Shown piece after piece: positions 32,258 to 52,405 of a stretch of 64,000 bases of DNA (positions are counted from its first letter, which is position 1; each line of letters opens with the position of its first letter). The notes under the pieces were generated by a model. That model was given only the letters and a program-made list of their open reading frames with translations. It was not told where the DNA came from and searched no databases. Source of the stretch: Eubacterium ventriosum (GTDB lineage Bacteria > Bacillota > Clostridia > Lachnospirales > Lachnospiraceae); assembly GCF_025150745.1 (NCBI RefSeq), contig NZ_CP102282.1:2057501-2121500 (forward strand), read 5' to 3'. Made by a program: the position numbers and the translations under genes.

Positions 32258-33106
32258 ATGGAAAATATTCAAAAAACAAATGTAGAAACTTCTGCTTATA
32301 ATAAGCTTAATTTTTATTTAAGACAAATACGATCAAAAACAGATTTCATTCCTGAAACTGCCATAGTTCTTGGTTCAGGTCTTGGAAATTTTTCAGACAA
32401 AGTCAAAAAAGTTTGTATCATAAATTATTCTGATATTGAAGACTTCCCTATTAGCACTAACAAAATGCATGCTGGACGTTTTATTTTCGGATATATTGAA
32501 AGTAAACCTGTAGTTTTAATGGACGGAAGAATTCACTACTATGAAGGTTATTCAATGGAGCAGGTTGTAACTCCGATTAGAATTATGAAAATGCTTGGTG
32601 CAAAGAACCTTATTCTTACTAATGCTGCCGGTGGCATTGACAGCGATTTTAAACCTGGTGACTTAATGGTAATCACAGACCAAATTACTTCTTTTGTTCC
32701 ATCACCTTTAGTGGGACCAAACATCGAAGAATTAGGCACAAGATTTCCTGACATGACACATGTTTATGCATCCGATTTAATTAATAAGCTTGAATCAATC
32801 GGCAAAAAATATAATCTTAATTTAAAGAAAGGCGTTTACTTACAGACAACAGGTCCAAACTATGAAACGCCTTCTGAGATTAGAGCCTATAAAATTCTTG
32901 GAGCGAATGCCGTTGGTATGAGCACAGCTTGTGAGGCTATGGTAGCTGTACACTGTGGGATGAAAGTTTGTGGAATAAGTTGTATTACAAACATGGCTGC
33001 CGGAATAACAGGCCAACCTTTAGATGATAAAGAAGTTGTTGAAGTTGCCGTTACTGTTGCAGACAAGTTGGAAGCAATTTTGTATAACCTTGTGATTGAA
33101 ATGTAA
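32258..33106 (+). CDS. punA: Purine-nucleoside phosphorylase (trimeric type)
   Basis: Salvage enzyme that phosphorolyses inosine and guanosine to base plus ribose-1-phosphate. The 282-residue protein has VLGSGLGNF, GRFIFGYIESKPVVLMDGR (phosphate/ribose site), LTNAAGGID, LQTTGPNYETPSEIRAY and GMSTACEAMVA, all features of the type-I (trimeric, mammalian-like) PNP family. AAAGGAGG precedes the ATG. It is monocistronic on plus; the hairpin at 33299-33340 is its likely terminator. The bases around its stop are partly repeated just downstream (ATTGAAATGTAAT occurs twice). Confidence 0.95.
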   Translation: MENIQKTNVETSAYNKLNFYLRQIRSKTDFIPETAIVLGSGLGNFSDKVKKVCIINYSDIEDFPISTNKMHAGRFIFGYIESKPVVLMDGRIHYYEGYSMEQVVTPIRIMKMLGAKNLILTNAAGGIDSDFKPGDLMVITDQITSFVPSPLVGPNIEELGTRFPDMTHVYASDLINKLESIGKKYNLNLKKGVYLQTTGPNYETPSEIRAYKILGANAVGMSTACEAMVAVHCGMKVCGISCITNMAAGITGQPLDDKEVVEVAVTVADKLEAILYNLVIEM

Positions 33107-33298
33107 TAAGTGCGTGATTAGTTTATAATTGAAATGTAATGGAGTATATGATTAATTTGTAATTATTATAATGATTATTGTCTAATCATTATGGATAGCA
33201 TAAGCAGGTTATAATGTGATTGATATGTTTGATATGACTATTCTATGTTGTACTAGCGCTTTATAAAAATTGTTGTTATTCATTTTATATACGAATAA
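33107..33298 (+). other. 3' region of punA with a short degenerate duplication
   Basis: The sequence around the punA stop, ATTGAAATGTAAT, recurs about 34 bases downstream and again in degenerate form (ATTAATTTGTAATT), as if the gene's 3' end had been copied by slippage. Otherwise AT-rich with no ORF. Confidence 0.4.
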
Positions 33299-33340
33299 TA
33301 CGTGTGCTACGACATATTTGTTGTAGCACACGTATTTTTT
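33299..33340 (+). terminator. Strong hairpin terminator of punA
   Basis: TACGTGTGCTAC (33299-33310) pairs perfectly with GTAGCACACGTA (33323-33334). The stem extends inward by four more pairs (one G-U) to a four-base loop and is followed by TTTTTT. It shares the ACGTGT core with the array that follows and may be its first member. Confidence 0.75.
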
Positions 33341-33376
33341 GTATTTCTTATATTTTTTTCATTTATTTAATTTGGG

Positions 33377-34041
33377 ATTACATGTCATATAACAAAAATT
33401 TTATACGGCAAGTATTTTCTCTTGTTTTTAGCGTCATTTATTCTGGAATTACGTGTCACAGGACAAAAATCTTATACGACAAGTATTTTCTCTTGTTTTT
33501 AGCGTCATTTATTCTGGAATTACGTGTCACAGGACAAAAATCTTATACGGCAAGTATTTTCTCTTGTTTTTAGCGTCATTTATTCTGGAATTACGTGTCA
33601 CAGGACAAAAATCTTATACGACAAGTAATTTTTTAATCTTTTATTATAATTTGATTGAAAATTACGTGTCATACAAAAGTAATGACAAATGACACGTAAT
33701 CACTTGTTATAAAGTCTTATTCTTTCAATAAATTACGTGTCATATAGAAAACCCACTGTGTCACATGTAATTTACATCTATTACAGATTTCTGAATACCA
33801 AAACGTTATATCTTCCGTAAATATTTGATTTAAGCTTGTCCTTTCGTTAGCCATTACGAATTTCCTAATCAAAAATATTATAGTTTCCGTAATATAATAT
33901 ATTGAAATATTCTTGTTCTATCGTTGCCCATTACGGAACATAGAAACAAAAATGTTGTAACTTCCGTAATCTACAAATATTCTTGTCATTTTCGAACCAA
34001 ATTACGGTTTTTACAACAACAAATATCATATTATCCGTAAA
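33377..34041 (+). repeat. Array of ten 40-43 bp hairpin units with fixed ends ATTAC...GTAAT
   Basis: Units start at 33377, 33448, 33519, 33590, 33661, 33732, 33780, 33853, 33930 and 34000. The first six are exactly 71 bases apart. Each begins ATTAC and ends GTAAT or a near variant. Most share the middle CAAAAATnTTATA in the same orientation. Arms differ by subgroup: ATTACGTGTCA in units 1-6, ATTACGGAA-like in units 7-10. The opposite arm changes to match (perfectly in 33661-33700 and 33930-33970). Spacers of about 31 bases are identical in units 1-4 and diverged afterwards. No ORF with a ribosome site is present. It fills the gap between convergent punA and pdxT. I cannot name the family. Confidence 0.85.
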
Positions 34042-34104
34042 TAACTAAATAATGTTGCCTATACCAAACCCGGAGCGTGGACACCACCCAGAACAACTTT
34101 GTAT

Positions 34105-34146
34105 AAAAAACGAAGGAAGAAATCTTCTTACTTACATATTTCTTCC
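34105..34146 (-). terminator. Terminator of pdxT
   Basis: GGAAGAAAT (34115-34123) pairs with ATTTCTTCC (34138-34146), the latter inside the last pdxT codons. On minus the stem is followed after TTCG by TTTTTT (34105-34110). Confidence 0.65.
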
Positions 34147-34694
34147 ACGAAATATTTGTGTACCAGCAGGCTGTCATTTAATTCCGGATGAAATGATGTT
34201 ACCATTTGGTTGTCCTGTACTGCGGCAACTATGTTGCCGTTGCAGGTTGCTATGGCCCTGGCTTTAGGACCGCACTCTGTTATGTACGGTGCTCTGATAA
34301 ATGTCATCGGAACTTTTCCTATGTTGTCGAAGTTTTCTTCAGAATAGAAACTTCCAAGCTGTCTTCCGTATGCATTTCTTTTGACAGTTATGTCCATTGT
34401 TCCAATATGAACTTTTTCATCATTTTCTATTTTGTCAGCCAAAATTATCATTCCGGCACAAGTTCCAAAAACAGGCATTCCATCATTAATCATGTTTTTC
34501 AAATCTTCAAGAATATCCAGTTCTCTTAATAGTTTGCCTATTACTGTACTTTCTCCTCCCGGAATAATTATTCCATCCATTTGACCTTCAATATCCTTTT
34601 TTTGACGTATTTCAAAAGATTCCACTCCTAATTTTTCAAGGATTTTTTCATGTTCTACGAATGCTCCCTGTAATGCAAGTATACCAATTCGCAT
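34128..34694 (-). CDS. pdxT: PLP synthase glutaminase subunit PdxT
   Basis: Supplies ammonia from glutamine to PdxS for pyridoxal-phosphate synthesis. The 188-residue class I amidotransferase opens MRIGILALQGAFVEHEK. It has the oxyanion/substrate loop IIPGGESTVIGKL, the nucleophile in FGTCAGMIILAD, and the His-Glu pair in TSFHPEL. I use the ATG at 34694, eight bases after GAGAGG and one base after the pdxS stop; the longer opening to 34739 lies inside pdxS. The pair makes the DXP-independent PLP route, the usual one in Firmicutes. Confidence 0.97.
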   Translation of the reverse strand: MRIGILALQGAFVEHEKILEKLGVESFEIRQKKDIEGQMDGIIIPGGESTVIGKLLRELDILEDLKNMINDGMPVFGTCAGMIILADKIENDEKVHIGTMDITVKRNAYGRQLGSFYSEENFDNIGKVPMTFIRAPYITECGPKARAIATCNGNIVAAVQDNQMVTSFHPELNDSLLVHKYFVEEICK

Positions 34695-34695
34695 A

Positions 34696-35571
34696 TTATT
34701 TACCTCTCTCAGCCATAAGAAGTTCAATTTCCTGCTCATTTATTCCAACCATGGCTTCGCCTAAGTCTTCTGATAATTCAGCAAGGATTTTTGCATCGTT
34801 AAAGTTTGTTACAGCTTTTACTATAGCTGCTGCTCTCTTCTTAGGATTTCCTGATTTAAAAATACCTGAGCCAACGAATACACCTTCTGCGCCAAGTTGC
34901 ATCATAAGTGCTGCATCAGCAGGTGTAGCAACTCCGCCCGCTGCAAAGTTAACTACAGGAAGCTTTCCGTTTTCTGCAACATATTTAACCAATTCATAAT
35001 CTACCTGAAGGTCTTTAGCTGCCTGATATAATTCATCTTTTGAAAGACTTGTAAGTCTTCTGATTTCACTCTGCATACTACGCATATGTGTAACTGCCTG
35101 GATTACATCCCCTGTTCCGGGTTCACCTTTTGTACGAATCATTGAAGCTCCTTCGCTGATTCTTCTTAATGCTTCTCCTAAATCTTTTGCTCCACATACG
35201 AATGGTACCTGAAATTTAGTTTTATCAATGTGGTATTTACCGTCTGCCGGTGAAAGCACTTCACTTTCATCTATGTAATCTATTTCAATAGCTTCAAGAA
35301 TCTGTGCTTCTGCAAAATGTCCAATTCTACATTTAGCCATAACAGGAATTGAAACAGCTTCCTGAATACCTTTAATCATCTTTGGATCACTCATTCTTGA
35401 AACGCCACCTGCTGCACGAATGTCAGCCGGTATTCTTTCAAGTGCCATAACTGCACAAGCCCCTGCTTCTTCTGCGATTCTTGCCTGTTCAGGTGTTGTA
35501 ACGTCCATAATAACGCCACCTTTTAACATCTGTGCTAAGTTTTTGTTTAATTCATAACGATTTTCTGCCAT
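34696..35571 (-). CDS. pdxS: Pyridoxal 5'-phosphate synthase subunit PdxS
   Basis: Builds PLP from ribose-5-phosphate, glyceraldehyde-3-phosphate and ammonia; a dodecamer working with PdxT. The 291-residue TIM-barrel protein has [37 protein letters not shown] with a catalytic lysine, [16 protein letters not shown], and [19 protein letters not shown] with FVGSGIF for phosphate binding. AGGAGG precedes the ATG. The leader has a nine-base perfect complement to that ribosome site, so access may be controlled (see 35582-35647). It forms an operon with pdxT. Confidence 0.97.
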
Positions 35572-35972: not shown

Positions 35973-35995
35973 AACCTATTATATATTTTTATGAA

Positions 35996-36338
35996 TGAGT
36001 AAAGCTGTAAGCCGGGTTATGTCGTGGATGATCATCTATCTAGACATATCGTTACCAATATGTTCAAGCAACCTACCCGAAAGCTGGCGGGCAACCATAT
36101 GCTTTCTGCTCGGTCTTGCTTCAAGTGGGGTTTACACTGACCCTCGATGTTACCACCGAAGCGGTAGTCTCTTACACTACCATTTCATCCTTACCAGCAA
36201 GCTGGCGGTTTTATTTCTGTTGCACTTTCCTGGGAGTCACCTCCACCGGCCGTTAGCCGGCACCCTGCCCTATGAAGCCCGGACTTTCCTCACCTGCGTC
36301 CTTTCGGCAATAGCAGCTGCGATCATCTGCTCTACTCA
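35996..36338 (-). ncRNA. rnpB: RNase P RNA
   Basis: On minus the sequence holds the universally conserved RNase P cores. Near the 5' end it has GAGGAAAGTCCGGGC and GGGCAGGGTGCCGGCTAAC, in the middle CAGGAAAGTG with ACAGAAA, and at the 3' side GACATAACCCGGCTTAC. The P3/P4 region with CAGGGTGCC and TAACGGCC looks like the ancestral type A fold, not the Bacillus type B. The RNA is the catalytic part of the enzyme that trims tRNA 5' ends. Ends are estimated to within about ten bases. The GC-rich block stands out from its surroundings. The open frame on plus across it is a by-product. Confidence 0.96.
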
Positions 36339-49492: not shown

Positions 49493-49601
49493 TTGATTAC
49501 AGTGTTCCAAATGAGCATAAAAGCGAAGCTCTTGCTTTGCGATATGCGAATTTGGTGGTGGATTGCGGCAGTGCGTAGCACGTAACAATCCGTGTAATCA
49601 A
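49493..49601. repeat. 109-bp branched inverted-repeat element (three-way junction)
   Basis: Perfect 9-bp ends TTGATTACA (49493-49501) and TGTAATCAA (49593-49601) enclose two complete stem-loop arms. Arm A: CCAAAT/ATTTGG (49507-49512, 49550-49555), GCATA/TATGC (49515-49519, 49543-49547), GCGAAGC/GCTTTGC (49523-49529, 49534-49540). Arm B: GGATTG/CAATCC (49560-49565, 49586-49591) with GTGC/GCAC at its tip. It is more GC-rich than its flanks, contains no ORF, and has no U-tract on minus. It could be an untransposed miniature element or a structured RNA downstream of the DUF1540 gene. Confidence 0.75.
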
Positions 49602-52164: not shown

Positions 52165-52405
52165 AAAAAAGTCCCTGTTTATGTTTCCATAAACAGGGAC
52201 GTAAAATACGCGGTTCCACCCTGATTGTTTCTGTCAAAATCTATTCTGACAAAAGCCTCTCATTCTGATTATAACGGAATCACCGGACTTGATTAGAGTC
52301 GCTCAGAGGTAGTCTTCAATTATCCTTCTGTAAAATGCTCTCAGCTATGCATCTCTCTCTGTGACCCTCCGGATAACCTACTCGTCTCGTCAACGCTTTG
52401 TTCAC
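52165..52405 (-). promoter_or_regulatory. T-box riboswitch of thrS
   Basis: On minus the leader holds the T-box core AGGGTGGAACCGCG (52209-52222), the antiterminator sequence. The terminator GTCCCTGTTTATG/CATAAACAGGGAC (52171-52183, 52188-52200) follows with TTTTTT. Upstream is a large stem I with the AGAGAG and GAAGACTACCTC segments. The likely specifier codon is ACC (52308-52310), matching threonine, as expected for thrS. Uncharged tRNA-Thr would bind and allow read-through. Confidence 0.93.

Follow-up and report, generated by a model that had tools for sequence, protein, structure and literature searches.

The locus between punA and pdxT in Eubacterium ventriosum raises the question of what ten palindromic units, lined up between two convergent genes, are and how they came to be there. 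We examined them in a window of 64,000 nucleotides, the whole stretch of DNA that was analysed, and across the host genome, a single contig of 2.86 Mb for which genome-wide counts came from searches and from individually read stretches. A previous reading of the letters alone (here, the sequence-only reading) had proposed that a folded form of the units is selected. We found that the block belongs to a family of repeats with a fixed internal order. Our preferred explanation, which we consider somewhat better than an even bet, is that a composite interspersed repeat specific to this lineage has one of its copies here, and that its palindromes serve as helix-phased, double-stranded DNA sites of a putative protein.

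The punA–pdxT array and its relatives in the genome

The sequence-only reading had placed ten units in 33377-34041, with the first six spaced by exactly 71 bp, and both statements were confirmed (Table 1). Six 40-bp GTGTC-type units with the ends ATTACGTGTC...GACA[C/A]GTAAT are followed by four GGA-type units of 41-42 bp with the ends ATTACGGAA...TTCCGTAAT. Its further claim that the spacers of units 1-4 are identical holds for the spacers after units 1-3; the fourth differs. The open reading frames called within the block (89 and 79 aa) fall in repeat DNA. The intrinsic terminator of punA has a long stem with 16 nt in common with the array units, and the two are possibly related by descent or conversion, in which case either may have been made from the other. 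Elsewhere in the window, Rfam models matched a Clostridiales-1 RNA (49494-49600), a T-box leader (52192-52402) and RNase P RNA (35992-36338), all of them ordinary.

Table 1. Features at the punA–pdxT locus, in window coordinates, and positions of related copies in the host genome.
Feature	Position	Strand	Details
punA, purine-nucleoside phosphorylase	32258..33106	+	NCBIfam above cut-off; upstream of array in array orientation
punA intrinsic terminator	33289..33344	+	stem shares TGTTGTAGCACACGTA with array units; weak unit-model match, E 0.0036
GTGTC-type block	33377..33771	+	six 40-bp units starting at 33377, 33448, 33519, 33590, 33661 and 33732 (start-to-start step exactly 71); five 31-bp spacers; R1 profile match at all six
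Junction of GTGTC-type and GGA-type blocks	33772..33779	+	8 bp
GGA-type block	33780..34041	+	units starting at 33780 (42 bp), 33853, 33930 and 34001 (41 bp each); spacers 31, 36 and 30 bp; R2 profile matches
E2 copy	34054..34124 (ends approximate)	-	just beyond last unit, pointing at array
pdxT	34128..34739	-	NCBIfam above cut-off; far side of array, convergent with punA
13 arrays (genome)	1081, 1120, 1274, 1353, 1599, 1609, 1615, 1750, 2091 (= window), 2192, 2413, 2647, 2654 kb		
Single or broken units (genome)	121, 1147 (degenerate), 1517, 1557, 2332, 2818 kb		

The block is one of many. The arm pattern TTACGTGTN{18,26}ACACGTAA had 41 matches in the genome versus 1 for the reversed control, and these dispersed and arrayed copies bear out the suggestion, made from the window alone, of a REP-like or binding-site array. 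Profiles R1 and R2, one for each unit type, were built from units located by blastn and by the pattern, and matched every known array plus several additional places. The genome holds approximately 90 units of a 71-72-bp module (31 bp of spacer joined to a two-fold symmetric site of 40-41 bp), distributed over about 13 arrays of 2 to 12 units and several single copies. By eye, the module consensus is ATTACGTGTC-RTAGARC-RAAAATG-YTRTN-SACACGTAAT, then approximately TTATTGAAATATTCTTGT-TTTTCGCTRCCG. ATTAC/GTAA feet occur in nearly every unit, and spacer homology between arrays is weak. CRISPR was rejected since spacers repeat within arrays and drift between them, the former point having been made already from the window.

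The order of the parts is fixed. In all seven arrays measured, GTGTC units are followed by 8-11 bp and then by GGA units. A constant 3' part, made up of the last GTGTC unit, approximately 10 bp and the GGA units, is common. In the arrays at 1081 and 2413 kb, the end consists of 10 bp followed by a degenerate ATTAC start; at 1274 kb, the last unit is a truncated GGA unit adjoining E2 (see below). The 1120-kb array is 74% identical to that of the window over 396 bp, essentially within the array bounds. Related arrays resemble each other as far as their approximate ends but not in their flanks, so whole arrays have been copied to other places. Hybrid units, with the left arm of one type and the right arm of the other, were found in the 2192.6-kb array and in the 2332.6-kb unit. 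The former is a variant array (L031:2080-2394) in which spacers alternate between 11 and 20 bp instead of 31. The region from approximately 0.12 to 1.08 Mb, almost 1 Mb, holds no array or clear unit, with approximately 18 loci elsewhere (chance roughly 0.02).

Arrays lie behind genes, mostly downstream of an intrinsic terminator, and the neighbouring housekeeping genes include punA, pdxT, prfA, malic enzyme and eno. Eight of the nine arrays flanked by co-oriented genes run on the gene strand, and the remaining arrays are between convergent genes. None of the multi-unit arrays of this genome is between divergent genes; the only element in such a place is an isolated GGA unit (1557 kb).

A second element, E2 (approximately 70 bp; consensus by eye GAAGATTTCTCTTCTCATTTTTCGTACAAAGTCGTCCGGGGCGGTGTCCACGCCCCGGGGTaCAGTATA), accompanies some of the arrays. 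A search allowing three mismatches, beyond whose reach more diverged copies would lie, detected seven copies genome-wide, all beside six array loci and all seven pointing at the array. Its offset is equal at the 1081-, 1750- and 2332-kb loci, approximately 90 bp ahead of the first unit. E2 is at the 5' end at three loci, at the 3' end and inverted at three others, and at both ends at none; at 121 kb it interrupts a unit at position 25. Across loci it appears to behave like an inverted end repeat, reminiscent of a MITE, whose hallmarks are target-site duplications and terminal inverted repeats shared with an IS; neither an IS nor a duplication was identified for these arrays. The presence of E2 at one end only of any array counts against the composite-repeat reading. 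The 1274-kb array has E2 in tandem (L036:2010-2180), as three copies approximately 57 bp apart, the outermost degenerate.

Distribution, spacing and possible helix phase

The array was absent from 22 congeners, and E2 gave a single, chance-like match among them in the 3-mismatch search. In the congeners read, punA and rnpB are direct neighbours; there is no array, and pdxT/pdxS do not separate the two genes. We saw no target-site duplication or empty site, because the congeners share only approximately 70% identity at punA and their gene order is different. One of 396 other genomes of the family has the repeat, a Lachnospiraceae MAG of another genus. The strict pattern, run over approximately 85,000 species genomes, likewise returned one Lachnospiraceae MAG (RUI131, whose contig is a contig of the array-bearing genome G313), together with four isolated matches in unrelated bacteria. 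The RUI131 array is beside pta and has a unit step of 62-63 bp and spacers unrelated to those of E. ventriosum; four units were placed by their left arms, and a fifth, degenerate, occupies the remaining double step. No E2 was found in this MAG. A phage or plasmid origin was rejected: a blastn search of plasmids and phages with the 1750-kb array and its E2 gave no match, and pattern matches in viral contigs were isolated singles, as by chance. We came across no account of this repeat in the literature searched.

We then compared spacer lengths and spacer sequences. Of 53 spacers between successive GTGTC units, 48 measure 31 or 32 bp (31 bp, n = 40; 32 bp, n = 8); the 2192.6-kb array contains the other five, which measure 11 or 20 bp. 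These spacers form 21 clusters below 70% identity, with a mean identity between arrays of 44% versus a random expectation of 30%. Conservation is far stronger for the spacing than for the sequence of the spacers. Neutral DNA at such a substitution level is expected, from general indel-to-substitution ratios, to have accumulated many indels. Part of the fixed spacing could come from common descent.

The distances may also reflect the helical repeat of DNA. The RUI131 step is about one helical turn shorter than 71-72 bp, and spacers of 31, 20-21 and 10-11 bp are about one helical turn apart; clustering of these distances at 10.5 bp gave R 0.92 and p about 0.02, with five distance classes. A-tracts recur near 10.2-10.4 bp, and of ten harmonics compared, the one at 10.1-10.4 bp ranks first in 10 of 13 blocks. 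In the RUI131/G313 array, the 6th harmonic of 62.5 bp (10.4) takes the place of the 7th, and the A-tract period stays at 10.4 bp. This periodicity appeared very strong against shuffles, part of it being a trivial harmonic of the 71-bp repeat; when artificial tandem repeats served as controls, the effect was modest (p 0.01-0.26 for individual blocks, which are not independent). Together, these data suggest, but do not prove, that the arrays are helix-phased.

On our preferred reading, the putative protein would recognize the symmetric site as double-stranded DNA and would require adjacent sites at a fixed rotational setting along a curved helix; it may be a mobilising recombinase or transposase, or an architectural protein. 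The element would spread as non-autonomous DNA, its arrays would lengthen through tandem duplication, and they would persist at harmless sites behind genes and terminators. Conservation of spacing, not of sequence, offers a clear test of whether 'junk' repeats are platforms for proteins or parasitic DNA.

Two other accounts are less likely. A selfish or neutral satellite, made by tandem duplication, occasional copying and drift, would have no protein that reads it and would merely inherit its spacing. Homogenisation within arrays, relatives that lack the repeat and the lack of an attached gene of its own all fit such a satellite. We nevertheless consider it possible but unlikely, given that spacers down to 44% identity between arrays are nearly constant in length, that arms and centre are conserved, and that a second genus has an equally regular array with unrelated spacers. 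We give the same low weight to a wider reading in which the arrays are curved, helix-phased platforms where a putative architectural or recombination protein would read paired TTACGTGTC half-sites on one face of the DNA. Such platforms, present separately in two Lachnospiraceae lineages (71-72 and 62-63), might organise or insulate the chromosome behind terminators.

Folding of the units

The case for a selected fold, as RNA or single-stranded DNA, had rested on arms that seemed to co-vary within the window. We tested covariation in 57 GTGTC-type and 18 GGA-type units from the whole genome against shuffled columns. At mirror positions of GTGTC-type units, 76.6% of cells pair versus 76.9% after shuffling, and two-sided changes were fewer than in shuffles; in GGA-type units, 64.1% of cells pair versus 65.5%. 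Over the two types, pairing and two-sided changes did not exceed the shuffled values. Uncompensated mismatches recur at fixed positions: of 52 distinct units, 15 have an A facing G6 and 27 have a C or A facing C10. The left arm is nearly invariant and the right arm varies by itself. Arms change on both sides only at the switch between GTGTC and GGA types, which suits a two-fold symmetric protein site equally well. Covariation beyond column composition was thus absent from the 75 aligned units, and selected folding, as argued from covariation, was rejected; the recurrent mismatches and the hybrid units likewise oppose the view that changes had preserved pairing. More generally, palindromes that differ on both sides between subtypes are not by themselves evidence for selected folding of RNA or single-stranded DNA.

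The observation behind that argument was sound in itself. Units 33661-33700 and 33930-33970, reported to pair perfectly, have perfect outer arms and fold well as single-stranded DNA, with z scores of -5.1 and -4.3. For the five other window units tested, folding did not exceed that of shuffled sequences (z +0.2 to -0.8). Many units do fold as hairpins, and this counts against the double-stranded-site reading. The sequence-only reading had named as evidence against itself a lack of covariation together with a lack of copies in related genomes. The first is what we found; the second is true of the congeners, and an array is present in one MAG of another genus.

These results bear on two further explanations. 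The arrays might extend the upstream gene as a transcribed series of hairpin RNAs (small RNAs, a sponge or a transcription attenuator), a possibility that we rate below the satellite. It would account for the agreement in strand between most arrays and their upstream gene (8 of 9 informative cases) and for the likeness of the punA terminator to a unit, and for some REP and BOX repeats transcription is reported or plausible (PMC3733652, PMC3049150). Against it, arrays are usually downstream of the gene's intrinsic terminator, units have no U-tracts, compensatory changes are absent, and neither the window block nor any other array searched matched an Rfam family, which also led us to reject a known Rfam RNA. 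Least likely is a REP/BIME-like hairpin that a Y1 (HUH) transposase, akin to RAYT or IS200/IS605 enzymes, would move in folded single-stranded form. In its favour, the units are 40-bp imperfect palindromes with constant ATTAC/GTAAT feet, many fold well as single strands, and they are extragenic, behind genes and between convergent genes, as reported for REPs (PMC3733652). Against it, they lack a GTAG or CGTC foot and covariation, shuffled sequences fold as well as several of the window units, and Y1_Tnp (PF01797) is absent from the genome in a search that was positive in E. coli and five other controls. RAYT or Y1 mobilisation was rejected on that last result, and the transposase or recombinase that had been anticipated nearby was not found (Y1, PF01797, whole genome).

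Relation to known interspersed repeats

A REP is defined as a palindrome of 20-40 bp with an unpaired GTAG or CGTC tag on one side (PMC3733652). Like REP/BIME elements, the units are small palindromes outside genes that occur singly or in clusters on the downstream side of genes, and they lie between co-oriented or convergent genes as REPs do. They differ in having no GTAG/CGTC foot, a longer palindrome, a strictly regular head-to-tail order and no RAYT that we could find. NIME combine the 20-bp dRS3, ATTCCC(N8)GGGAAT, with RS elements of 30-160 bp, in nearly 700 copies, and the integrase of a filamentous phage targets dRS3 (PMC3898611). Here too a short palindrome alternates with spacer elements in intergenic arrays of hundreds of base pairs, but the palindrome is 40-41 bp, spacer length is almost invariant, there are approximately 90 copies, and we found no phage link for these arrays. 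The ATTCCC(N8)GGGAAT core is absent from the unit consensus. In architecture the family is of the composite-repeat kind, like BOX and NIME, and in position it resembles REP; we did not assign it to the REP or dRS3 families because their defining sequence features are absent.

The BOX elements of pneumococcus have the structure boxA-(boxB)n-boxC, with terminal inverted repeats matched to an insertion sequence, ISSpn2 (PMC3049150). The likeness to BOX of pneumococcus and S. suis is one of architecture only: a composite intergenic repeat with a variable number of internal tandem modules and perhaps with terminal modules, enriched behind genes. The number of tandem modules does vary here, from 2 to 12 per array, with single copies elsewhere. 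In contrast to BOX, the modules are 71-72 bp with a 40-bp palindrome and come as two successive types, E2 is at one end only, and the arrays are confined to a single species of Lachnospiraceae and one MAG. Streptococci and neisseriae are known to carry composite interspersed repeats, BOX and NIME among them; the family described here is a very regular example from the Lachnospiraceae.
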